From Lachnospiraceae bacterium (lineage in GTDB: Bacteria; Bacillota_A; Clostridia; Lachnospirales; Lachnospiraceae), in contig JAFSFU010000190.1 of NCBI GenBank assembly GCA_017435025.1, positions 1 through 31,683 of the forward strand: a stretch of 31,683 bases of DNA. Reading direction: 5' to 3'. Each line of letters opens with the position of its first letter. Within the stretch, counting starts at the first letter, position 1. The notes beneath the pieces were generated by a model. The model did not search any database. It was not told the DNA's origin and saw only the letters and a program-made list of their open reading frames with translations. A program made the position numbers and the translations under genes. Of the stretch, positions 391 to 31,683 are shown one piece after another.

Positions 391-400
391 AGAGAATCAA

Positions 401-614
401 TATTTAACTCAGTAATTATATAACAAAAATCGGTGTACAAAGATAGCTTCGTTTTCGAAGTTCATCCGTGCGCTTATAAGCAACTGCTCTCGCAACTCGT
501 CCCTTTGGGACTCAAACAGTGCTCCGCAGTTGCAGCTAGCACAGATGAACTTTGCGAAAGCCTCGCAATCATCTTTGGTACGCCGATTTTTGCTGTATAA
601 TACTGAATCAAATA
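401..614. repeat. 214-bp imperfect palindrome (long inverted repeat)
   Basis: Left arm 401-438 and right arm 578-614 are near-perfect reverse complements, sharing TCAGTA/TACTGA, CAAAAATCGG/CCGATTTTTG and GTAC/GTAC. Further nested stems lie inside: GAAGTTCATC (457-466) with GATGAACTTT (544-553), GCAACTGC (480-487) with GCAGTTGC (526-533), and a central TCCCtttGGGA. The whole element could fold into one long hairpin. It sits between convergent genes (1-390 plus, 773-1912 minus). I see no ORF and no transposase. It could be a MITE-like element or a bidirectional terminator. Confidence 0.75.
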
Positions 615-660
615 TCTTTATATAATTACTACACCATACTTGTGTTTATGTGCATTTTGT

Positions 661-770
661 TAAGATTTTTTAATTGGGGAAGATAAAAAGGACCATCTAA
701 TGGAAAAACGCTCATTCTGTAAATGAGCGTTTTTCTATATATGGCTTTTTATTTACTCAATTAAATATCA
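661..770. repeat. Short copy (copy A) of a three-copy inverted-repeat element
   Basis: The right arm, ending TTTACTCAATTAAATATCA at 770, and the GACCATCT/ATGGCTTTTTATT flanks match the ends of the longer elements at 25664-25896 and 31206-31443. The left terminal repeat (about 663-690) is degenerate. The roughly 120-nt interior of the long copies is missing. A 14-bp perfect stem (703-716 with 722-735) takes its place. The element ends two bases from the stop codon of the minus-strand amidohydrolase at 773. No coding capacity. Confidence 0.7.
703..735. terminator. Bidirectional intrinsic terminator hairpin inside copy A
   Basis: GAAAAACGCTCATT (703-716) pairs perfectly with AATGAGCGTTTTTC (722-735) across a 5-nt loop. 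The A- and T-rich stem ends give a U-tract on either strand. It lies 38 nt past the stop of the minus-strand amidohydrolase, so it probably ends that transcript. Confidence 0.75.
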
Positions 771-1984: not shown

Positions 1985-3124
1985 TTAGATTGCCTTACCG
2001 TCGATAAGAACGTATTTAGCTTTACCTTCTACTGTGAACGGGCAGCCTTCCATAATAACGATATCAGCGTCTTTGCCTTCCTCAAGGGAACCTACGCGAT
2101 CAGCAACACCGATGTGCTCAGCCGGGTTGATTGTGATAGCGCGGAGAGCGTCGAACTCGTCCATACCAGCTTTGATCGCAAAGCCTGCGCATAACGGAAG
2201 GTGGTGAAGCGGGATAACCGGAGCGTCAGTGATGATGGAAACGTGGCAGCCTGCTTTTGCAAGGATACCCGGTGTCTCCCAGCACTTGTACTGAAGCTCA
2301 AATTTTGTGGAGTGACCGAATGTCGGACCAACTGCTAACGGCTTATTAGCTTCAACCAGCTCGTCAACGATCAGGTGACCTTCTGTTACATGCTCAAGAG
2401 TAACATCAACGTCGAACTCTTTTGCAATGCGGAGAGCTGTGAGGATATCATTTGCCTGATGTGCATGAGCCTTTAACGGGATCTCTTTGTTGAGAACCGG
2501 AATTAAAGCTTCGGATTTCTCATCGTAAGCCGGAAGTTTGGAAACATCTTCGCCAGCAGCTTCAACTTTTGCTTTGTAAAGCTGAGCTTTCTTTAATGCG
2601 ATGCGGAGATCAGCAGCAGTTGTCATACGGCTGGAGATACCCATTGATTTGTAGCAGCGTTTCGGGTTCTCACCGAATGCGCATTTCATAGCTACCGGAT
2701 ATTTTACGATCATCTTATCTACACAGTTGCCGGTTGGTTTGATAGCAACGAATGTACCGCCAAGTACGTTGGAGGAGCCTGGGCCTGTTGCGAAGCAAGT
2801 AACACCAGCTTTAGCAGCCTGCTTCATAGTAACATCCATCGGATTGATACCGTCGATGGAACGAAGGTGCGGAGTTACCGGCTCGTTGTACTCATTATAG
2901 TCCTGTCCTTCATAACCGATACCGTGGCCGTCAAGACCTGTATGGCAGTGAGCATCGATGAAGCCCGGATATACGTTAAGGCCAGTAGCATCGATCACTT
3001 CTGCGCCTTCTGCACATAAGTTTTCACCGATTTTTGCAATTTTGCCGTTGTCAACAAGGATATCAGCTACGAAAGCTTCTCTTGTTACCGCTGTATGCAG
3101 GTTACCATTTTTAATTAAGATCAT
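1985..3124 (-). CDS. Amidohydrolase-superfamily metallo-hydrolase, paralog 2
   Basis: 379 residues; ATG at 3124 with AAAGGAGG 9 nt upstream. The protein is closely similar to the product of 773-1912 along its full length, for example sharing MKCAFGENPKRCY, GISSRMTTAA and LEHVTEGHLIVDELVEAN. Metal-binding His59 and His61 lie in DAHCHTG. The HAHQAND motif, LEHV and IITDAP complete the expected amidohydrolase ligands. The differences between the copies, such as the GLDGHG/GMAGHG loop after the first metal site and the VIPLHHLP/FTPLDSLP segment near the catalytic Asp, could alter substrate choice. This copy has its own promoter and is first in the pair. The reaction is probably hydrolysis of a cyclic amide or amide-like C-N bond in the cytoplasm; the substrate is unknown. 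Confidence 0.85.
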   Translation of the reverse strand: MILIKNGNLHTAVTREAFVADILVDNGKIAKIGENLCAEGAEVIDATGLNVYPGFIDAHCHTGLDGHGIGYEGQDYNEYNEPVTPHLRSIDGINPMDVTMKQAAKAGVTCFATGPGSSNVLGGTFVAIKPTGNCVDKMIVKYPVAMKCAFGENPKRCYKSMGISSRMTTAADLRIALKKAQLYKAKVEAAGEDVSKLPAYDEKSEALIPVLNKEIPLKAHAHQANDILTALRIAKEFDVDVTLEHVTEGHLIVDELVEANKPLAVGPTFGHSTKFELQYKCWETPGILAKAGCHVSIITDAPVIPLHHLPLCAGFAIKAGMDEFDALRAITINPAEHIGVADRVGSLEEGKDADIVIMEGCPFTVEGKAKYVLIDGKAI

Positions 3125-9455: not shown

Positions 9456-9458
9456 AAT

Positions 9459-9690
9459 TGGGTGTAAAACTACATTGTTTGTTTTCACGCCCATTTTACG
9501 TTGCATAATGGGCATAAACCTTGTTCTTTTATTTCATACGCCCACATTATTGGGTGTTTGAATGCCACCTTACTGCATTAATGCCCATTATGAGAAGAAA
9601 ATGTGGGTGTACGAATAGCTTGAATGTATCCTATGCCCAACATCTGTTTAAAAATGGGCGTTGGGGACCTTCGACCTCCTGCTATGCCCA
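9459..9690. repeat. Array of alternating inverted motifs, about 50-bp period
   Basis: Five units each contain TGGGYRT, 21-23 nt, then AYGCCCA. Left motifs start at 9459, 9509, 9551, 9604 and 9655; right motifs end at 9493, 9544, 9587, 9639 and 9690. Unit lengths are 35, 36, 37, 36 and 36. The units are separated by 15, 6, 16 and 15 nt. Each TGGGYRT can pair with the AYGCCCA on either side, so alternative hairpin sets are possible. The sequences between motifs are not conserved. It fills the gap between convergent genes (precorrin-2 dehydrogenase and lysR) and has no credible ORF. Confidence 0.75.
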
Positions 9691-9728
9691 ATGAATATTC
9701 GAATGGAGGGAGACTGCTCATTCACTTT

Positions 9729-17271: not shown

Positions 17272-17291
17272 TTGAATACTCTTAAAATTTT

Positions 17292-17332
17292 AACTGTCGC
17301 TTTGCGAGTGTATCGCAGGGCGGCAGTTTTTT
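17292..17332 (+). terminator. Intrinsic terminator after the MalY/PatB-type gene
   Basis: AACTGTCGC (17292-17300) pairs with GCGGCAGTT (17320-17328), with an inner GCGA/TCGC helix, followed by TTTTTT. Confidence 0.8.
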
Positions 17333-17334
17333 GA

Positions 17335-17485
17335 TTTACAGGAAAGAACTTGTCGCGCTGATGCATGAAAGTTTCTTTCCTGTAAACCCAAAAGGCCCTG
17401 TACGGGCCAATATGCACAGCTCGCGGCGAGGAAGCTGCTGCTTCGCAGCCCGCTCGCGCGCGAAGAATGTGCCAAGGCACATTCT
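17335..17485. repeat. GC-rich multi-hairpin intergenic repeat-like element
   Basis: Several inverted repeats follow one another: TTTACAGGAAAGAA (17335-17348) with TTCTTTCCTGTAAA (17373-17386), GGCCC/GGGCC (17394-17408), GCTGCttcGCAGC (about 17431-17443), and AGAATGTGCC/GGCACATTCT (17464-17485). The central part is much richer in G and C than its surroundings. Short ORFs cross it on both strands but look incidental. It resembles dispersed palindromic repeats of Lachnospiraceae; only one copy is visible here, so its repetitive nature is inferred. Confidence 0.5.
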
Positions 17486-17537
17486 TTATTCCTTAAAAAT
17501 ATTCTGTTCAGAGTCGGTTAAGATTCCGTATATCCTG

Positions 17538-21799: not shown

Positions 21800-22768
21800 A
21801 TGGAGAAGAAATATGATGTGACGGCGTTAGGGGAATTGTTGATCGATTTTACGGAAAACGGAGTGAGTGGCCAGGGAAATCCGATATTGGAGACCAATCC
21901 GGGCGGTGCGCCGTGCAATGTGCTGGCAATGCTGCAGAAGCTGGGAAGTAAGACCTCATTTATTGGCAAGGTAGGAAATGATCAGTTTGGCTGGATGTTG
22001 AAAGAGACAATTGAATCCGTTGGTATTGACTCGGGGAACTTGATCATGGATGATGAGGTTCATACGACCTTAGCCTTTGTTCACACCTTCGAAGACGGAG
22101 ACAGAGACTTTTCTTTCTACCGCAATCCGGGCGCGGATATGATGTTAAAAGTGACGGATGTGCAGAAAGACAGAATCGAAGCGTCAAAGATCCTCCATTT
22201 TGGCACACTTTCTTCCACTCATGAGACATGTCGTGAGGCGACCAGATATGCACTGCAGTGTGCAAAAGATGCAGGTGTGCTTGTGTCCTTTGACCCGAAT
22301 CTGCGAGAACCACTGTGGAATGATCTGGAGGATGCAAAGCGTGAGATCGCCTATGGACTCGGATTGGCGGATATTGTAAAAATCTCTGATAATGAAGTAG
22401 TATTTATGACCGGGGAAGAAGATTACGAGAAGGCGGCAAGAATCCTGCAGGAGAAATATCAGATTCCGCTGCTGTTTGTGACTCTGGGACGCGATGGCAG
22501 TCGTGCATATTATAAAGATATGCGTGTTGAGGCTGCAGGTTTTATTCAGGAACATACCATCGAGACCACCGGTGCCGGTGATACGTTTACCGGCTGTGTA
22601 CTCAGTAAGATTCTGGAACGCGGCGGTATCGAGGGACTGACGGAAACGGAATTAAAAGAAATGCTGACGTTTGCAAATGCCGGTGCATCTTTGATCACCA
22701 CAAGACGCGGGGCATTGAAGGTCATGCCGGAGCGGGTGGAGATTGAAGAATTGATTATGAAGAGATAA
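21800..22768 (+). CDS. PfkB-family carbohydrate kinase, probable fructokinase
   Basis: 322 residues from ATG at 21800 (MEKKYDVTALGE), about 10 nt after AAAGGG; in-frame ATGs at 21749 and 21782 are less likely. The ribokinase-fold start TALGELLIDFT and NPGGAPCNVLAML are the fructokinase form of the substrate loop. The PfkB signature TTGAGDTFTGCVL holds catalytic Asp261. It phosphorylates a free sugar, most likely fructose to fructose-6-phosphate, in the cytoplasm. No sugar transporter or hydrolase is adjacent, so the sugar is assigned by family resemblance only. Monocistronic, with its own promoter and terminator. Confidence 0.88.
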   Translation: MEKKYDVTALGELLIDFTENGVSGQGNPILETNPGGAPCNVLAMLQKLGSKTSFIGKVGNDQFGWMLKETIESVGIDSGNLIMDDEVHTTLAFVHTFEDGDRDFSFYRNPGADMMLKVTDVQKDRIEASKILHFGTLSSTHETCREATRYALQCAKDAGVLVSFDPNLREPLWNDLEDAKREIAYGLGLADIVKISDNEVVFMTGEEDYEKAARILQEKYQIPLLFVTLGRDGSRAYYKDMRVEAAGFIQEHTIETTGAGDTFTGCVLSKILERGGIEGLTETELKEMLTFANAGASLITTRRGALKVMPERVEIEELIMKR

Positions 22769-22769
22769 G

Positions 22770-22790
22770 GGGCGGGTTTCCGCCCTTTTT
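22770..22790 (+). terminator. Intrinsic terminator after the fructokinase gene
   Basis: GGGCGG and CCGCCC with a 4-nt loop, followed by TTTTT; the stem begins one nucleotide after the stop codon. Confidence 0.85.
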
Positions 22791-22823
22791 GATTTCCGTG
22801 TGAATGTATTAAGAAATTATAAA

Positions 22824-22850
22824 TTAGCACTCTCTGCTTGACAGTGCTAA
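22824..22850. promoter_or_regulatory. CIRCE operator (HrcA binding site) upstream of clpB
   Basis: TTAGCACTC, 9 nt, CAGTGCTAA. It matches the CIRCE consensus (TTAGCACTC-N9-GAGTGCTAA) at all but one position. It overlaps the clpB -35 box, so HrcA binding would block polymerase. Confidence 0.9.
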
Positions 22851-22866
22851 CAACATGTGCTATAGT
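22838..22866 (+). promoter_or_regulatory. Consensus sigma-A promoter for clpB
   Basis: TTGACA (22838-22843), 17 nt, TATAGT (22861-22866). The -35 box lies across the spacer and right arm of the CIRCE palindrome. Confidence 0.85.
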
Positions 22867-22930
22867 TCTTCTAGAACAAACAAAAATGAACACATTGTAA
22901 TTCATCTAACGTTTTAGGAGGCTTGCAATT

Positions 22931-25519
22931 ATGAATATCAGTAAATTTACGCAAAAATCGGTTCAGGCGGTACAGGGCTGTGAGAAGCTGGCTTATGAAT
23001 TTGGCAATCAGCAGATTGGTCAGGAGCATCTTCTTGTGAGTCTGCTTCGCTTGGAGGACAGCCTGATTTTGAAATTGATCACGAAAATGGGAATTTCCGG
23101 TGAGCAGTTTTTGAACGAGGCAGAACAGTTGATCAATAAACTTCCGAAGGTGTCCGGCGGCGGTCAGGTTTATATCAATAATGATCTGAATAAAGTCCTG
23201 ATCAATGCGGAGGACGAGGCAAAGGCAATGGGAGACGAGTATGTTTCCGTGGAACATGTTTTCCTTTGCCTGATGAAAGAGGCAAATAAAGCGCTGAAAG
23301 ATCTGTTCAAGATGTACGGCATTGACCGTAACAAGTTTTTACAGGTACTTTCCACAGTACGAGGCAACCAGCGTGTGGTCAGTGACAATCCGGAAGTGAC
23401 GTATGATACATTAAATAAATATGGTGCAGATCTGGTAGAAAGAGCCAGGGAACAGAAATTGGATCCGGTAATCGGCCGCGATGCGGAGATTCGAAACGTG
23501 GTTCGTATTCTTTCCAGAAAGACGAAAAATAATCCGGTTCTGATCGGTGAACCGGGTGTCGGTAAGACAGCGGTAGTGGAAGGCCTGGCGCAGAGAATTG
23601 TCCGCGGCGATGTGCCGGAAGGACTGAAGGATAAAAAGTTGTTCTCACTGGATATGGGTGCATTGGTGGCAGGTGCCAAGTACCGAGGTGAGTTTGAAGA
23701 ACGTCTGAAAGCCGTCCTGGATGAAGTGAAGAAAAGTGACGGTCAGATCATTCTCTTTATCGATGAACTGCATACGATTGTCGGCGCTGGTAAATCCGAT
23801 GGCGCTATGGATGCAGGTAATATGTTAAAACCGATGCTGGCCCGCGGTGAGCTGCACTGCATCGGTGCTACCACACTGGATGAGTATCGCAAATATATTG
23901 AAAAGGATCCGGCGCTTGAGCGTCGTTTCCAGCCGGTACTGGTGGATGAACCGACAGTGGAAGATACGATTTCCATTCTTCGCGGTCTGAAGGATCGTTA
24001 TGAAGTGTACCATGGCGTGAAGATCACAGACTCTGCGCTGGTAAGTGCAGCAGTGCTTTCCAACCGCTATATCAGCGATCGTTTTCTGCCGGATAAAGCC
24101 ATCGATCTGGTGGATGAGGCATGTGCGATGATCAAGACCGAGTTGGATTCTATGCCAACCGAACTGGATGAATTATCCAGAAAGATCATGCAGATGGAGA
24201 TTGAGGAAGCGGCGCTTAAGAAAGAGACGGACCGCCTCAGCCAGGATCGTCTGGCGGACTTACAAAAAGAATTGGCAGAGCTGCATGATACCTTTACTTC
24301 CCAAAAGGCTCAGTGGGAAAATGAGAAGGCATCCGTGGATAAACTTTCCAGTCTTCGCGAAGAGATTGAGAGTGTGAATCGTCAGATTCAGGATGCGCAG
24401 CAGAGATATGACCTGAATAAGGCGGCAGAATTGCAGTACGGAAAACTTCCGCAGCTGGAGAAAGAACTGCAGGAAGAGGAAGAACGTGTAAAGAATCAGG
24501 ACTTAAGTCTGGTACACGAAAGTGTGACTGACGATGAGATTGCAAGGATTATCTCCCGCTGGACCGGAATTCCTGTGGCAAAGCTGACTGAGAGCGAGAG
24601 AAATAAGACTCTTCATCTCGATGAGCAGCTGCACAAGCGTGTGGTCGGACAGGATGAAGGTGTGGAGAAAGTGACCGAGGCCATTATTCGTTCCAAGGCC
24701 GGAATCAAAGACCCGACCAAACCGATTGGTTCTTTCCTGTTCCTCGGTCCAACCGGTGTCGGTAAAACGGAGCTTGCGAAAGCTCTGGCTGAGAATCTGT
24801 TCGATGATGAAACCAATATGGTCCGCATCGATATGAGTGAATACATGGAGAAACACTCCGTATCCAGACTGATCGGAGCGCCGCCAGGATATGTAGGTTA
24901 CGATGAAGGAGGTCAGCTGACCGAGGCAGTTCGCAGAAAACCGTACTGTGTCGTACTGTTCGATGAGGTGGAAAAAGCCCATCCGGACGTGTTCAATGTG
25001 CTGCTTCAGGTGCTGGATGACGGACGGATCACAGATTCCATGGGTAAGACAGTTGATTTTAAGAATACGATCATCATCCTTACATCCAACATTGGTTCCC
25101 AGTATCTGCTGGATGGAATTGATGAGGAAGGAATGATCCGCCCAGAGGCAGAGGCTGCGGTTATGCACGATCTTCGTGCGCATTTCAGACCGGAATTCCT
25201 GAATCGTCTGGATGAGATGGTTCTGTTCAAACCGCTCACCAAGAGCAACATCGGTGGAATCATCAACCTGCTGATCGCAGATGTGAATAAGCGCCTTGCA
25301 GATAAAGAACTGTCCATCGCACTGACTGATGAGGCTAAGGCGTTTATCGTGGAGAATGGCTACGATCCGGTATACGGTGCAAGGCCGTTAAAACGTTACC
25401 TGCAGAAACATGTGGAGACATTGGCTGCGAAGCTGATTCTTTCCGACGGCGTGCGTGTGGGCGATACGATTCTGATTGATGTGGTAGATGGAAAACTGAG
25501 TGCGAGTGCAAAGAGATAA
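22931..25519 (+). CDS. clpB: ATP-dependent disaggregase ClpB
   Basis: 862 residues, the normal ClpB length; ATG with AGGAGG 9 nt upstream. Layout: N-terminal substrate domain (1-145), first AAA+ module with Walker A GEPGVGKT (206-213) and Walker [10 protein letters not shown], coiled-coil middle domain (about 400-530, rich in Lys/Glu/Gln), and second AAA+ module with Walker A GPTGVGKT (606-613) and [12 protein letters not shown]. The pore-loop segment [10 protein letters not shown] is present. It lacks the ClpP-docking loop typical of ClpA/ClpX as far as I can see. It rescues aggregated proteins with DnaK. It is controlled by CIRCE/HrcA. Confidence 0.96.
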
Positions 25520-25535
25520 TTATAAGTTGATATTT

Positions 25536-25621
25536 CATTCAGTGATGTAAGTTTCATTCGTTCATTAAATTATAAAATTATAATCCAACAATTGAATGTG
25601 AAAGAAACTTACATCTGAATG
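25536..25621. repeat. Long hairpin directly downstream of clpB
   Basis: CATTCA plus GATGTAAGTTTC (25536-25555, 2-nt bulge) pairs with GAAACTTACATC plus TGAATG (25604-25621), giving 18 bp around a 48-nt A/T-rich loop. It is preceded by TGATATTTCATT (25528-25539), the same start as the terminal repeat of the element at 31206. It may terminate clpB mRNA or be a related element. Confidence 0.6.
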
Positions 25622-25663
25622 AACTATGCATAGAACATACACACGAGAGGTTCATTTTAATTG

Positions 25664-25896
25664 TGATATTTTGATTGAGTAAGATTGAAAGTGTCTATTA
25701 GAAAATCCCATATTCTGAAAATGATAGGCTGGACGACTGAGCTTCCAAAGATTTTCGCCTGTACAAAGATTGCAAATGCATTTATCGCAATCGTCGTACA
25801 GGCGGATAAAATCGCATGGAAGCAAAGGTAGTCAGCCGTATTTACAGAATATGGGATTACTATATAGATAGCTTTTATTTACTCAATTAAATATCA
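25664..25896. repeat. Full-length copy B of the structured inverted-repeat element
   Basis: 233 bp with ends TGATATTT...ATTGAGTAA and TTTACTCAATTAAATATCA. The outer stem is AATCCCATATTCTG (25704-25717) with CAGAATATGGGATT (25845-25858). Inner stems are GCCTGTAC (25757-25764) with GTACAGGC (25796-25803), and GATTGC (25768-25773) with GCAATC (25787-25792). Copy C has the same layout in the opposite orientation, with different but still complementary bases in the stems. No ORF. Confidence 0.8.
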
Positions 25897-25927
25897 ATTC
25901 CCCCATCCATGCGTCCACAGATTTACA

Positions 25928-25957
25928 TTGACACTTAACATAATTATCATGTATGAT
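25928..25957 (+). promoter_or_regulatory. Promoter for the acetolactate synthase pair
   Basis: TTGACA (25928-25933), 18 nt, TATGAT (25952-25957). The leader of about 45 nt is too short for a T-box or leader-peptide attenuator. Confidence 0.7.
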
Positions 25958-26010
25958 AAAAGGTAAATTTGATTTGATATACGTGATGGAAATAGAGGGG
26001 AGACCTAACA

Positions 26011-27624
26011 ATGAATGGTGCACAGGCAATGATCAAATGCCTTGAAAATGAAGGGGTAGAGACCATATTCGGTTATCCGGGTGTGGCAATCTGTCCGTTT
26101 TATGATGCAGTGTTGGATTCTGATATCCGTACAGTTTTGGTGCGTTCGGAGCAGAATGCGGCTCATGCTGCCAGTGGAATGGCACGTGTGACGGGAAAGG
26201 TGGGGGTCTGCGCGGTCACAAGCGGTCCTGGTGCGACCAACCTGATCACAGGAATTGCTACGGCGTTCGCGGATAGTATTCCGCTGATCTGTATTACCGG
26301 CCAGGTAAACAGCGAATTGATTGGAAGCGATGTATTCCAGGAGGCTGATATTACCGGTGCAACGGAATCATTTGTAAAGTACAGCTATCTTGTGAGAAAC
26401 GTGGAAGATATTCCGCAGATCATGAAAGAGGCGTTCTATATTGCCAATACCGGACGAAAGGGACCGGTTCTGATCGATGTGCCAATCGATGTGCAGAATG
26501 CGACGATCAAGAAATTCAAATATCCGGAGAGTGTTTCTCTTCGTACATATAAACCGACCGTCAAAGGTCATGCTGTTCAGATGAAAAAGGTGATGACAGA
26601 GCTCCAAAAGGCAAAACGCCCGGTAATCTGCGCCGGCGGCGGTGTGCTGCTTAGTGATGCACAGAATCTGATGCGCGAGTTTGCCCACAAATACCGTGTT
26701 CCGGTGGTTTCCACGATGATGGGAATCGGAGCAATGCCGACTCTGGATCCGCTGTATTTCGGTATGGTTGGAAACAATGGTATGGCGTATGCAAACCGTG
26801 CAATGAACGAAGCGGATATGGTCATTATGGTCGGTGCCCGCGTGGCGGACCGTGCGGTAAATCAGCCGGAGATCATCACAAAAAATAAGGTTTTAGTACA
26901 TATGGATGTGGATCCGGCAGAAATTGGAAAGAATGCCGGTCCGACGATTCCGCTGGTTGGCGATGCAAAACATATCTTTACAGATATGATGCAGATGGAA
27001 ATTGAAGTGGACCATGAAGAGTGGATCCAGACTTTGTATCGATATGGCGAAACAATGGAAGTAAAACGTAATCCGGATCCGGACTATGTGGATCCGGCGG
27101 CGTTTGTACGTATGTTGTCCGAGAAAATGGATGAAGATGGAATCTACGTGGCTGACGTAGGCCAGAATCAGATCTGGTCCTGCAAAAATTATCTGATGCG
27201 AAACGGCAGTTTCCTTACTTCCGGCGGTATGGGAACCATGGGTTACTCTATTCCGGCTGCCATTGGTGCTAAAATGGGCTGTCCGGATCGGCAGGCGGTT
27301 GCAGTATGTGGTGACGGTTCTTTCCAGATGTCTATGTGTGAACTGGCGACCATGCGCCAGCATGGAGTGGCTGCCAAAGTGGTCGTGATGAAAAACGGAT
27401 ATCTCGGCATGGTGCGCGAGTACCAGACGAAGACATACAACAATCGATTTTCCGTGGTGGATCTTTCCGGTAGTCCGGATCTGTCCAAAATCGCGGAGGC
27501 GTATGGAATTCCGTTTATCCGTGTGACAAGGATGGATGAGGCGGAGGCAGCGATCGAACGTTTCCTGGAGAATGACGAATCGGTGTTGATGGAGTGCGTG
27601 ATCCATCCGTTGGACAGAGTGTAG
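26011..27624 (+). CDS. ilvB: Acetolactate synthase, large (catalytic) subunit
   Basis: 537 residues. Thiamine-diphosphate enzyme with Glu47 in RSEQNAAHAASGMAR, the glutamate that activates the cofactor. The cofactor motif GDGSFQMSMCELATMRQHGV starts at about residue 434 and ends in VVMKNGYLGMVREYQ. It joins two pyruvates to acetolactate, or pyruvate and 2-ketobutyrate to acetohydroxybutyrate, for valine, leucine and isoleucine. It is slightly shorter than the usual 560-590 residues. The small ACT-domain subunit follows 12 nt later, which supports a biosynthetic rather than fermentative enzyme. No ilvC or ilvD is in the window. Confidence 0.92.
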   Translation: MNGAQAMIKCLENEGVETIFGYPGVAICPFYDAVLDSDIRTVLVRSEQNAAHAASGMARVTGKVGVCAVTSGPGATNLITGIATAFADSIPLICITGQVNSELIGSDVFQEADITGATESFVKYSYLVRNVEDIPQIMKEAFYIANTGRKGPVLIDVPIDVQNATIKKFKYPESVSLRTYKPTVKGHAVQMKKVMTELQKAKRPVICAGGGVLLSDAQNLMREFAHKYRVPVVSTMMGIGAMPTLDPLYFGMVGNNGMAYANRAMNEADMVIMVGARVADRAVNQPEIITKNKVLVHMDVDPAEIGKNAGPTIPLVGDAKHIFTDMMQMEIEVDHEEWIQTLYRYGETMEVKRNPDPDYVDPAAFVRMLSEKMDEDGIYVADVGQNQIWSCKNYLMRNGSFLTSGGMGTMGYSIPAAIGAKMGCPDRQAVAVCGDGSFQMSMCELATMRQHGVAAKVVVMKNGYLGMVREYQTKTYNNRFSVVDLSGSPDLSKIAEAYGIPFIRVTRMDEAEAAIERFLENDESVLMECVIHPLDRV

Positions 27625-27636
27625 GAGGGGACATAT

Positions 27637-28122
27637 ATGAAAAAGATTTATTCTGTTTTGGTAGAAAACCGCTCCGGTGTTCTGTTCAAGGTGGCAGGGT
27701 TGTTTTCGAGAAGAGCTTTCAATATTAATAGTCTGGTTGTGGGTGAGACCGATGATCCGACCATGTCCAGAATGACCATTGTTTCCACCGGTGATGCCCA
27801 TACGCTGGAGCAGATTGAGAAACAGCTCAATAAGAAACTGGATGTGATCAAGGTTAAAACTTTTGATGAGCATGAATGTTATACCCGCGAGCTGATGCTG
27901 ATCAAGGTGAAATATGGAAGAAGCAATCGAAAGGACATTATGGAAATCTGCAGCATTATGAAGGCTGAGATTGTGGACATGTCAAAAAATTATATGATGA
28001 TTCAGCTTTGCGATACATCGGATCGGATTCAGTTGTTCATGAATATGCTGAATGGAATTACGATTACAGAAGTGGCCCGTACCGGTACGGTGGCGCTGCC
28101 AATGTGCAAAGAGAATGAATAG
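27637..28122 (+). CDS. ilvN: Acetolactate synthase, small (regulatory) subunit
   Basis: 161 residues, the standard length; ATG with AGGAGGGG upstream. An N-terminal ACT domain (YSVLVENRSGVLFKVAGLFSRRAFNINSLVVGETDDPTMSRMTIVS in consecutive short motifs at 4-49) binds the feedback inhibitor valine. The C-terminal ACT-like domain (ELMLIKVKYGRSNRKDIMEICSIMKAEIVDMS region) completes the fold and contacts the large subunit. It is cotranscribed with ilvB and stimulates and regulates it. The symbol ilvH is equally valid for this family. Confidence 0.93.
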   Translation: MKKIYSVLVENRSGVLFKVAGLFSRRAFNINSLVVGETDDPTMSRMTIVSTGDAHTLEQIEKQLNKKLDVIKVKTFDEHECYTRELMLIKVKYGRSNRKDIMEICSIMKAEIVDMSKNYMMIQLCDTSDRIQLFMNMLNGITITEVARTGTVALPMCKENE

Positions 28123-28126
28123 GCGG

Positions 28127-28164
28127 ATGCTGTCTTGTAGATAAAACTGCAGGACAGCATTTTT
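28127..28164 (+). terminator. Intrinsic terminator after the acetolactate synthase genes
   Basis: ATGCTGTC (28127-28134) pairs with GACAGCAT (28153-28160), followed by TTTT. Confidence 0.8.
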
Positions 28165-28166
28165 AA

Positions 28167-28195
28167 TTGACAGGGAAATACACTGTTTATATAAT
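28167..28195 (+). promoter_or_regulatory. Perfect-consensus promoter for the nucleotidase fusion gene
   Basis: TTGACA (28167-28172), 17 nt, TATAAT (28190-28195). Both hexamers and the spacing are ideal, predicting strong expression. Confidence 0.85.
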
Positions 28196-28220
28196 GAAGT
28201 CAGAAAAGGAGGCGATATCC

Positions 28221-31202
28221 ATGAAAAGATATAAGAAATTTGGCGTTTTGTTTTTGGCGATGATGATGGTCCTGCATGTGACTGTCCTTGCTTTTGCTGA
28301 CCAATCTGCTTCAAAGAACGGGGATGTAGTGGTCCTTTATACCAATGACGTCCATACACATGTGGATAATGAGGGGCTTCGCTATTCCAACGTGGCTGGT
28401 CTCAAGAAAGAATTGGCAGCAGCGGGTAATGAGGTAATCCTGGTGGATGCGGGTGATCATATTCAGGGAACTGCCTACGGCTCCATGGACAAAGGCGAAA
28501 CGATCATTCATTTGATGAATGCAGCAGGATACGATCTTGCTACTTTGGGAAACCATGAATTCGATTACGGTATGGACGGCGCCATGAATGCGATCCAATG
28601 GGCAGGTTTTCCATATGTGTCTGCAAATTTCCATCATGAAACGAACGGTGCAATGGGTGAGAGTGTGCTGGATTCTTACCATGTTTTTGATTTCGGAGAG
28701 ATGGAAGTGGCATTTGTTGGTATTACCACACCGGAGACTTTTACGAAATCCACACCGGCATATTTCCAGGATGGAAAAGGCAATTATATTTACGGAATTG
28801 CAGGCGGCACGGACGGTAAAGCACTGTATGCGTCTGTACAGAAGGCGATTGATGCGGCGGCAAAAGAGGCAGACGTTGTCATTGCACTCGGCCATCTGGG
28901 AGATGATCCGGCTTCGAAACCGTGGACCAGTGAGGAATTGATCGCAAATACGACCGGTCTTGATGCATTTATCGATGGTCATTCACATTCAACGGTAGCA
29001 GGAAAGAATGTGAAAGACAAAGCAGGCAATGATGTTCTGCTTACACAGACCGGTGAGTATCTGGATGCGGTCGGAAAGATGACCATTAAACCGGATGGTT
29101 CGATCATGACAGAATTAGTGACCGATTATGCGGGTGTTGATGAAACTGTGAAAGCGATGGAACAGGGATGGATCGATTCTGTCAACGGAAAATTAGGACA
29201 GAATGTTGGCTCTGTTTCTGATGTTCTCGATAACTACGACGCTGAGGGAAATCGATTGGTGAGAAGTCAGGAGACCAACACCGGTGATTTCGCAGCTGAC
29301 GCGTTATACTATCTGTTTACAGATATGGGGCTGGATGTGGATGTTGCTGTTATGAACGGCGGCGGAATCCGTAACAAAGCAGTAACCGGTGATATCACAT
29401 ATCTGACATGCAAAGAAATTCACAGCTTTGGCAATGTGGCATGTTTGCAGACTGTCACAGGTCAGCAGCTTCTCGATGCGCTCGAGTGGGGTGCGAAAGA
29501 TGCGGGTGCAGCTGAGAATGGCGGATTCTTACAGGTGTCCGGCCTAAAATATACGATCGACACAAATATTCCATCCACAGTGCAGAAGGATGAAAAAGGC
29601 GTATGGACCGGCGGGCCGACCGGAGCGTACCGTGTTAAAAATGTACAGGTACTGAATAATCAGACCGGCGCATATGAAGCGTTGAATCTGAATGCAAAAT
29701 ATAATCTGGCAGGTTACAATTATACACTCCGTGACCTGGGTGACGGTTTTGCCATGTTTGACGGAGCGGTCAATGTGCTGGATTATGTGATGGAAGATTA
29801 CATGGTACTGGCAAATTACATTCAGTCCTTTGCGGGATGTGAGGTGACCGGTTATTCTGAACCGCAGGGCAGAATTACGATCATCGAATCGGAAGCAATG
29901 GATAGCGGAAAGATTACAGTGGGTGGCCTGGACCAGAATCTTTGGACCACAAAGTACGGAAATTTGTATTGTGATCTGAAGGTGGAGAAGTTCTTTGATA
30001 TGGGCTATGGACTCGGTGATCTGGTAAAGGTGAAATTCCTGAATCAGGAACTGGTTCTCCCGGTAGTTCCAACGTATTCTTATGTGGAATCCGGAAAGCC
30101 GGCGATCATTGCCGGATTTACGGATAGCGGTGCACCGACCGGCTATATCTCCTTTGCGATCAATATGGGTAACTTTACGGAAACTTATGGAATTGCCGTG
30201 AAGAAGACGGACGATGCAGGGAACTGGTGGTTTGAGGCATGTGAAGGTGTGACATTCCCGATGGAGATCACATTGGAGATGGCAGAAGATGACGGATATA
30301 TGGCCCAGTATATGCTCCATGACCTGAACCGCACCAATGTGCGCGAGGACTATGCAGCGCTGACCGATGATCAGTTCGCGAATTTCCGGAATATTGCAGT
30401 AAGCGGTATGGGCAACCGGATTCTCTACCGGTCTTCCAGCCCGATCAATCCGGAGCTTGGAAGGAACACTTATGCCGATGCGGCGATTGAGGCAGCAGGC
30501 GTAAAGACGATCGTGAATCTGGCTGACAACAGAGATGAGGCTCAAGCATATCCGGGCTTTGGGGATTCTTATTACAGCAAACAGAATGTGATCTATCTTG
30601 GTCTTGGGGTGGACTTCCAGGCAGATGAGTTCAAGGCCGGACTTGCAAATGGTCTGAAGTTCATGTCATCCAACGAGGGTCCGTATCTGGTACACTGTAC
30701 CGAAGGTAAGGATCGCGCAGGTTTTGTTTCTGCTCTGCTTTCCTGCCTGATGGGGGCAAGCTACGAAGAAGTTCTTGCTGATTACATGGTTACATACGAC
30801 AATTACTACGGTATAAAACCTGGAACCGATAAGTACCAGGCGATTGCCGACAGTAATATCGTGAAGTCACTGAAACTGGCGTTTGGTGTAGATGATCTGA
30901 CTGCGGTGAATCTGGCAGCAGAAGCGGAAGAATATCTGCAGTCCATCGGACTGCGTTCTGATGAGATTGCCGCATTGAAGGCAAATCTGAGTGTCAGCCG
31001 TGAGGGTGCACCGGAGATTGCATACGTCAATGTTGTTACGAAAGGATACGTGGTTGTGCGCGGCGATTCCCTGTGGCTGATCGCACAGAGAGAGCTGGGC
31101 AATGGAAGACGCTGGACTGAGATTTATGATATGAATAAGAACGTTCTGGTGAATCCGGATTTGATCCGTGTTGGTCAGAGACTGGCGATGCCGGGACGGT
31201 AG
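28221..31202 (+). CDS. Secreted 5'-nucleotidase / tyrosine-phosphatase / LysM three-domain fusion
   Basis: 993 residues from ATG at 28221, with AGGAGG 8 nt upstream; a longer frame from 28167 starts inside the promoter. A signal peptide is cleaved after about AFA (27). The metallophosphatase domain (35-330) has YTNDVHTH, DAGDHIQG, GNHEFDYG, ALGHLG and DGHSHS; the 5'-nucleotidase C-terminal domain (about 355-575) has TGDFAADAL and MNGGGIRNK. A beta-rich region (about 575-715) is not recognised. A phosphatase of the Y_phosphatase3 type follows, with P-loop HCTEGKDRAG (Cys826, Arg832). A LysM module (about 945-993, VVVRGDSLWLIAQ) should hold the protein on peptidoglycan. It probably scavenges phosphate and nucleosides outside the cell. 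The combination is unusual. Confidence 0.88.
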   Translation: MKRYKKFGVLFLAMMMVLHVTVLAFADQSASKNGDVVVLYTNDVHTHVDNEGLRYSNVAGLKKELAAAGNEVILVDAGDHIQGTAYGSMDKGETIIHLMNAAGYDLATLGNHEFDYGMDGAMNAIQWAGFPYVSANFHHETNGAMGESVLDSYHVFDFGEMEVAFVGITTPETFTKSTPAYFQDGKGNYIYGIAGGTDGKALYASVQKAIDAAAKEADVVIALGHLGDDPASKPWTSEELIANTTGLDAFIDGHSHSTVAGKNVKDKAGNDVLLTQTGEYLDAVGKMTIKPDGSIMTELVTDYAGVDETVKAMEQGWIDSVNGKLGQNVGSVSDVLDNYDAEGNRLVRSQETNTGDFAADALYYLFTDMGLDVDVAVMNGGGIRNKAVTGDITYLTCKEIHSFGNVACLQTVTGQQLLDALEWGAKDAGAAENGGFLQVSGLKYTIDTNIPSTVQKDEKGVWTGGPTGAYRVKNVQVLNNQTGAYEALNLNAKYNLAGYNYTLRDLGDGFAMFDGAVNVLDYVMEDYMVLANYIQSFAGCEVTGYSEPQGRITIIESEAMDSGKITVGGLDQNLWTTKYGNLYCDLKVEKFFDMGYGLGDLVKVKFLNQELVLPVVPTYSYVESGKPAIIAGFTDSGAPTGYISFAINMGNFTETYGIAVKKTDDAGNWWFEACEGVTFPMEITLEMAEDDGYMAQYMLHDLNRTNVREDYAALTDDQFANFRNIAVSGMGNRILYRSSSPINPELGRNTYADAAIEAAGVKTIVNLADNRDEAQAYPGFGDSYYSKQNVIYLGLGVDFQADEFKAGLANGLKFMSSNEGPYLVHCTEGKDRAGFVSALLSCLMGASYEEVLADYMVTYDNYYGIKPGTDKYQAIADSNIVKSLKLAFGVDDLTAVNLAAEAEEYLQSIGLRSDEIAALKANLSVSREGAPEIAYVNVVTKGYVVVRGDSLWLIAQRELGNGRRWTEIYDMNKNVLVNPDLIRVGQRLAMPGR

Positions 31203-31205
31203 GAT

Positions 31206-31443
31206 TGATATTTCATTGAGTAAATAAAAAGCCATCTATAGAAAATATCTTATTTTGTAAAAACGGCTGACTACCTTCGCTTCCATGCGATTTTATATGC
31301 CGGTACGACGATTGCGATAAATGCTTTTGCAATCTTTGTACCGGCATAAATCTTTGAAAGCTCAGTCGTCCAGCCTATCATTTACAAGAATAAGATATTT
31401 TCTACCAGATGGTCTTATTTATCTTTACTCAATCGAAATATCA
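31206..31443. repeat. Full-length copy C of the structured inverted-repeat element (inverted relative to A and B)
   Basis: 238 bp, starting 3 nt after the nucleotidase stop codon. Ends TGATATTTCATTGAGTAAATAAA... (left) and TTTACTCAATCGAAATATCA (right). The outer stem is GAAAATATCTTATT (31241-31254) with AATAAGATATTTTC (31389-31402); the inner stem is GCCGGTAC (31299-31306) with GTACCGGC (31338-31345). It may also terminate the nucleotidase transcript. No ORF or transposase. Confidence 0.8.
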
Positions 31444-31683
31444 CAATAAAGCTCAAAGTGTGCTGGGAGTATCTATATGAGATTTTTATATCAATGGATA
31501 CTATAGAACTTGAAAAAACGAGAATCAAGGGCGGTAAAGTATCTCATGAAAAAAATGAAGGTCTCAGATACCGCAAAATGTTCGTTTCGGGTATCGCAGA
31601 ATCCGATTCTCATGCATAGATACTTTAAAACCATGTAAAATGTACCACATAGACTGGACACACCATTAAACAAGATAGACCCA
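31444..31683. other. No recognisable gene to the window end
   Basis: This A/T-rich stretch has several GTATCT/AGATAC motifs in both orientations and a GAGAATC (about 31520) with GATTCTC (about 31604) inverted repeat, so it may fold. I see no convincing ORF, promoter or RNA gene. It may be the upstream region of a gene beyond the window. Confidence 0.4.

Follow-up and report, generated by a model that had tools for sequence, protein, structure and literature searches.

We analysed a contig stretch of 31,683 nucleotides from a Lachnospiraceae bacterium, hereafter the window, and found in it five palindromic elements spanning 103 to 238 bp, which we call e1, e2, e3, x and e0 (Table 1). Two of them are full copies of one sequence (e1 and e2), one is a short copy (e3), and two are hairpins with the same ends (x and e0). 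As a first, sequence-only reading of this DNA had stated, with correct coordinates and correctly quoted stems, the element at 31206-31443 is a reverse-complement copy of the one at 25664-25896; the e1 region and the opposite-strand e2 region can be aligned over their full length with 83.7% identity in 258 columns. The same reading spoke of three copies, and a third does exist, but it lacks the inner module, the e3 hairpin having only a short loop at the position where e1 and e2 hold these 117 bp. The occurrence of e1 and e2 in opposite orientations at loci unrelated to each other, and of e3 at a third, shows that the element has been dispersed.

Table 1. Positions of the elements and their parts in the window (coordinates of the variable stems were counted from the sequence)
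Feature	Position	Strand	Remarks
e1	31206-31443	- (e2 orientation taken as +)	238 bp; 3 bases past the stop codon of 28167-31202
e2	25664-25896	+	233 bp; flanked on one side by a clpB-like gene, from which e0 separates it, and on the other by an acetolactate-synthase-like gene
e3	663-770	+	108-bp copy without inner module; 2 bases separate its end from the stop codon of 773-1948, a minus-strand gene
x	398-617		220-bp hairpin with a different interior; 7 bases past the stop codon of 25-390
e0	25528-25630		103-bp hairpin; 8 bases past the stop codon of 22931-25519
Terminal repeat, e1	31206-31223	+	exact, 18 bp
Terminal repeat, e2	25879-25896	-	exact, 18 bp
Terminal repeat, e3	753-770	-	exact, 18 bp
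Inner module, e2	25721-25837	+	117 bp; no indel relative to e1; absent from e3
Inner module, e1	31265-31381	-	117 bp
Variable stem, e2	25706-25711	+	TCCCAT; pairs with ATGGGA, 25851-25856
Variable stem, e1	31246-31251	+	TATCTT; pairs with AAGATA, 31392-31397
Variable stem, e3	708-713	+	ACGCTC; pairs with GAGCGT, 725-730
Inner helix (helix 8), e2	25754-25764	+	pairs with 25796-25806; three paired changes
Inner helix (helix 8), e1	31338-31348	-	pairs with 31296-31306; three paired changes

The terminal repeat TGATATTTNATTSAGTAA, allowing up to three mismatches, matches the window six times, against 0.16 matches expected, and none of 100 shuffles reached this number. As the pattern was written after the ends had been seen, the weight of this result rests on the fact that all six matches sit at hairpin ends. 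One of the two ends of e3 is degenerate, the ends of x carry the repeat with two and three mismatches, and e0 carries it with one mismatch at one end, its other end being degenerate as judged by eye; x and e0 are joined to e1-e3 through this repeat, while their interiors differ. Each of the five elements forms one long hairpin, with folding z-scores of -13.6 (e1), -14.6 (e2), -11.8 (x), -9.4 (e3, folded as 671-770) and -5.0 (e0), the fold energies of e1 and e2 having been compared with those of dinucleotide shuffles. Both full copies are nearly full-length palindromes, e1 matching 77% and e2 74% of its own reverse complement.

Four of the five elements (e1, x, e3 and e0) lie 2 to 8 bases from a stop codon. 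Under random placement of the elements within their own intergenic regions this would have a rough chance of 1.5e-6, an after-the-fact estimate that treats the elements as independent, leaves e2 out, ends the last region at the window edge and counts one stop codon per region, though 391-772 has one at each end. The core of e3, AAAAACGCTCATT-CTGTA-AATGAGCGTTTTT, has an A-tract, a stem and a T-tract and, lying between convergent genes, resembles an intrinsic terminator that would work in both directions; the stem base of x likewise has an A-tract and a T-tract. A simple terminator scan, confined to 22000-31683 and to loops of 3-8 bases, did not return e0, e1 or e2.

The sequence-only reading had also claimed that the stem bases of e1 and e2 differ in compensating pairs. 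In a consensus structure of the two copies, 7 of the 82 pairs are changed on both sides and still pair, five show one-sided G-U steps and none is broken, a result reached by 6 of 500 partner shuffles; when the partner was slid by 1-3 columns, such pairs dropped to 0. Since a structure drawn from both copies favours this outcome, we repeated the test using the pairs of a single copy at a time. Pairs from e2 scored in e1 gave 7 compensated, 7 one-sided and 6 broken out of 92, where the null means were 0.8, 4.1 and 20.0, respectively, and pairs from e1 scored in e2 gave 7 compensated, 5 one-sided, 7 broken and 5 gapped out of 94; in neither direction did any of 20000 simulations reach seven. Paired changes are therefore above chance. 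The signal is milder in a control that randomised the letters but left the substituted columns where they were (seven reached in 55 and 339 of 20000 runs), because part of it consists in changes standing opposite each other.

These double changes are concentrated in two short stems, with three in helix 4 (the variable stem), three in the 11 pairs of helix 8 (the inner module), one in helix 3, and none in the terminal helix (helix 1), all 17 paired positions of which are unchanged. Hence, the claim of compensating stems holds for two stems containing six of the seven changes, but not for the outer arms outside the variable stem, where 6-7 pairs are broken between e1 and e2. Within the inner module, the 38 consensus pairs include three with double changes and no broken one (three is reached in 4 of 200000 random placements), and mismatched internal loops a few bases from the changed pairs are preserved in both copies. 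The accompanying statement that single-stranded segments are nearly identical is literally true of the inner module, where 2 of 41 unpaired positions are changed, but it marks no real contrast with the 7 of 76 paired ones (p = 0.49), and over the whole alignment including the flanks the unpaired positions changed more often (17 of 82 against 19 of 164 paired ones, p = 0.08).

In the short copy the variable stem has yet another sequence. Across e1, e2 and e3, five of its six adjacent pairs vary, and every pair is still complementary, whereas 4-8 other outer-arm pairs are broken in each of the six comparisons among these copies; the compensated counts in the six comparisons were reached by 8-34 of 5000 simulations. 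As outer-arm pairs do break outside the variable stem, the compensation is local rather than arm-wide. The mismatches do not tell which strand might act as RNA: among transition mismatches, G-U number 9 and A-C 5 in e1-e3 (p = 0.42), 5 and 8 in x, and 1 and 1 in e0, and we rejected this line of evidence since the excess in e1-e3 is not significant.

Further copies were sought in several collections. The inner module of e1 and e2 contains the same 36-codon open frame, and with this frame as the query two proteins were matched. One, P0121, is identical to the frame in the window; the other, P0122, is a 75-residue ENA ORF from another source, the last 36 residues of which are 81% identical to the e2 frame and agree with that of e1 at 34 of 36 positions. 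At both inner-helix pairs for which residues are informative (codons 12/29 and 14/27), P0122 has those of the e1 type, indicating that the two helix sides go together, and we take P0122 to represent one more copy outside the window, found as a translated fragment. The opposite-strand open frame matched no protein, and TBLASTN searches with the open frame gave one chance-like match in plasmids (E-value 7) and none in phages. BLASTN searches against plasmids and phages returned nothing for e1 at an E-value of 1e-5 and nothing for x at 0.01. At an E-value of 10, the matches of e1 in plasmids (26-49 query bases each among the 20 of 37 matched records listed) and of e0 and e2 in phages (43 query bases each among the 20 of 33 listed) are chance-like. 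Four pattern scans of viral contigs had 0 matches and others yielded 22, 95, 68 and 36 stretches, among which no relative was confirmed. A scan of genome contigs gave nine stretches with a single 18-mer each, also chance-like, under titles naming Planctomycetales, Proteobacteria, Saccharibacteria or Akkermansia. The five elements, compared by BLAST with first 33 and later 196 collected loci, produced short matches only, the best one (e1 to L091, 52 columns, E-value 4e-4) falling on the terminal-repeat pattern by which that locus had been selected. From two sequences of the inner module (effective number 0.63) we built a covariance model, which had ten matches in the window up to an E-value of 10, namely, e1 and e2 on both strands each, e3 weakly on both strands (E-values 0.44 and 1.1) and four others with E-values of 4.3-8.7; it had none up to an E-value of 1 in 100 of the 196 collected loci. 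Beyond the ends, a 14-base match of x to e1/e2 (E-value 9.1) is too weak to claim a likeness; at 434-447 x has GTACAAAGAT[AT]GC and, by eye, TCGCAATC...GTAC in common with the apical stem of e1/e2, for which a common ancestor is possible.

A Pfam scan of the 26 window proteins named neither a transposase nor a RAYT family. For the clpB-like protein, the 25 of 31 families listed include TniB and IstB, and we read these matches as shared AAA ATPase domains. Seven pairs of ends lie 0.5-3.5 kb apart in viral loci, which is chance-like, and the five proteins scanned from two of these loci (L036 and L099) matched no Pfam family. Inspection of the element flanks by eye revealed no clean target-site duplication.

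Taken together, we consider that the elements are probably non-autonomous, MITE-like palindromic repeats, presumably moved in trans, with stems that are kept paired either for a 3'-end function or by correction between the arms. Judging by the terminal repeats, these ends would be recognised by a transposase, or by a comparable enzyme, supplied in trans. Pairing in the variable stem and the inner helix may be kept because the hairpin serves as a 3'-end structure, either a terminator or an mRNA stabiliser, of the preceding gene; alternatively, the paired arms may be corrected against each other during replication. The small number of copies, two in full, one shortened and one translated fragment from elsewhere, weighs against this reading, as does the failure of the above scans to name a transposase and to reveal a clean target-site duplication. 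Of the sequence-only reading, a structured, apparently non-coding repeat with kept pairing that would need mobilisation in trans fits these findings, but the selection on an RNA or single-stranded DNA fold that it proposed is not established.

Indeed, fold selection and palindrome-correcting template switches cannot be separated as the cause of the paired changes. It is quite possible that these changes arose by mutation alone, with template switches during replication copying one arm of the palindrome onto the other and thereby altering bases in both arms together, several at a time. Such switches in E. coli make imperfect palindromes more perfect and also yield paired changes (PMC7202029). 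The clustering of changes in blocks, i.e., in five of the six adjacent variable-stem pairs of three copies and in three of the 11 inner-helix pairs, together with the lack of a significant strand preference among the G-U mismatches, speaks for correction. On the other hand, the mismatched loops kept in the inner module speak for selection, since arm-wide correction would have erased them, although short-tract correction would not.

That the elements are instead a structured RNA (a small RNA or a regulator in 3' UTRs) that has spread through duplication and is under selection for the RNA fold of one strand appears unlikely. The low folding energies and paired changes would agree with it, as would an inner module with no indels and few unpaired changes, but no Rfam model matched the window at gathering scores, the excess of G-U over A-C mismatches is not significant, and with respect to the preceding plus-strand gene e1 runs in reverse but e2 directly, so that no fixed strand would be read from upstream. 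We regard as improbable a mobile element recognised by its shape, in which an enzyme or RNA partner would read the terminal repeats and the kept loops, the stem sequence would be free as long as it pairs, and terminator hairpins could acquire or drop the inner module as a cassette in their loop; if this were true, copies could renew their stems without losing function.

Finally, it is hardly credible that the inner module codes for a 36-residue peptide, although the same open frame occurs in e1, e2 and the metagenome match P0122: seven of the eight codons changed between e1 and e2 are nonsynonymous, which led us to reject coding, six of the nine changed bases of the module fall in compensated stem pairs, and no Shine-Dalgarno-like sequence was seen by eye in front of the frame. 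The sequence-only reading had denied the element any ORF; an open frame is in fact shared, but on the codon changes and the missing Shine-Dalgarno-like sequence it looks non-coding. The longest stop-free frames are 53 codons in e1, 73 in e2 and fewer than 30 in e3.

With moderate confidence, we place the elements in a new family of the bacterial MITE kind, compared with known families by their descriptions. At 108-238 bp, they have no transposase gene inside, bear terminal inverted repeats and occupy several unrelated sites. The bcr1 repeats of the Bacillus cereus group are reportedly also dispersed and proposed to have a conserved fold, a likeness by description. REP/RAYT and IS200/IS605 ends are hairpins mobilisable in trans, but these are short and located at element ends, whereas in the window a single palindrome, with an 18-bp repeat at its termini, makes up the entire element. 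Likewise, REP sequences are defined as palindromes of 20-40 bp with a GTAG or CGTC tag (PMC3733652), a definition that does not cover elements of 103-238 bp with such ends. According to PMC2229807, the Correia/NEMIS, ERIC (RU-1), YPAL (RU-2) and RUP MITEs are about 100-200 bp long, chiefly intergenic and bounded by terminal inverted repeats, their transcripts would fold into long stem loops, and several hold short open frames. By description they thus resemble e1-e3 in size, intergenic place, terminal repeats and long stem loop; for Correia, ERIC and RUP, 5'TA3' termini and target duplications are also tabulated there, and no clean duplication was seen by eye at the flanks here. SPRITE of Streptococcus pneumoniae, as portrayed in PMC10969869, is a small dispersed repeat with a rho-independent-terminator-like hairpin as in e3, a likeness by description only. 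A search of PMC full text for Lachnospiraceae with miniature inverted-repeat, a scope outside which most subscription papers fall, returned three papers, none of them about such a family by title, and none appears among the 20 listed of 1,393 results of a further search. The elements thus appear to be an undescribed family of structured small repeats. If their stems are free and their loops fixed, hairpin shape as a driver of mobility or 3'-end function becomes testable; if not, the elements are a clean case in which palindrome correction mimics the covariation of an RNA, and RNA discovery based on covariation should take it as a caution.

Other structured regions and neighbouring genes are recorded here in their own right. 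The intergenic region 17272-17500 is densely filled with separate strong hairpins, which include an inverted repeat of 21 nt (17328-17348 and 17373-17393) and the pair AAGAATGTGCC/GGCACATTCTT; the e1 terminal motif is absent from it. Between convergent genes, 9456-9728 contains repeated ATGCCCAT/ATGGGC palindromes with several possible pairings, a repeat type different from that of e1. The genes at 773-1948 and 1985-3124 are tandem and amidohydrolase-like, with stretches 77-81% identical. The gene 28167-31202 encodes a single long protein with 5'-nucleotidase, tyrosine-phosphatase-like and LysM domains; its closest match is P0002 (99%), P0040 (81% identical) is named Lachnospiraceae, by which the host is probably an uncultured relative of that family, and longer matches of 64-65% are named Ruminococcaceae or Oscillospiraceae.
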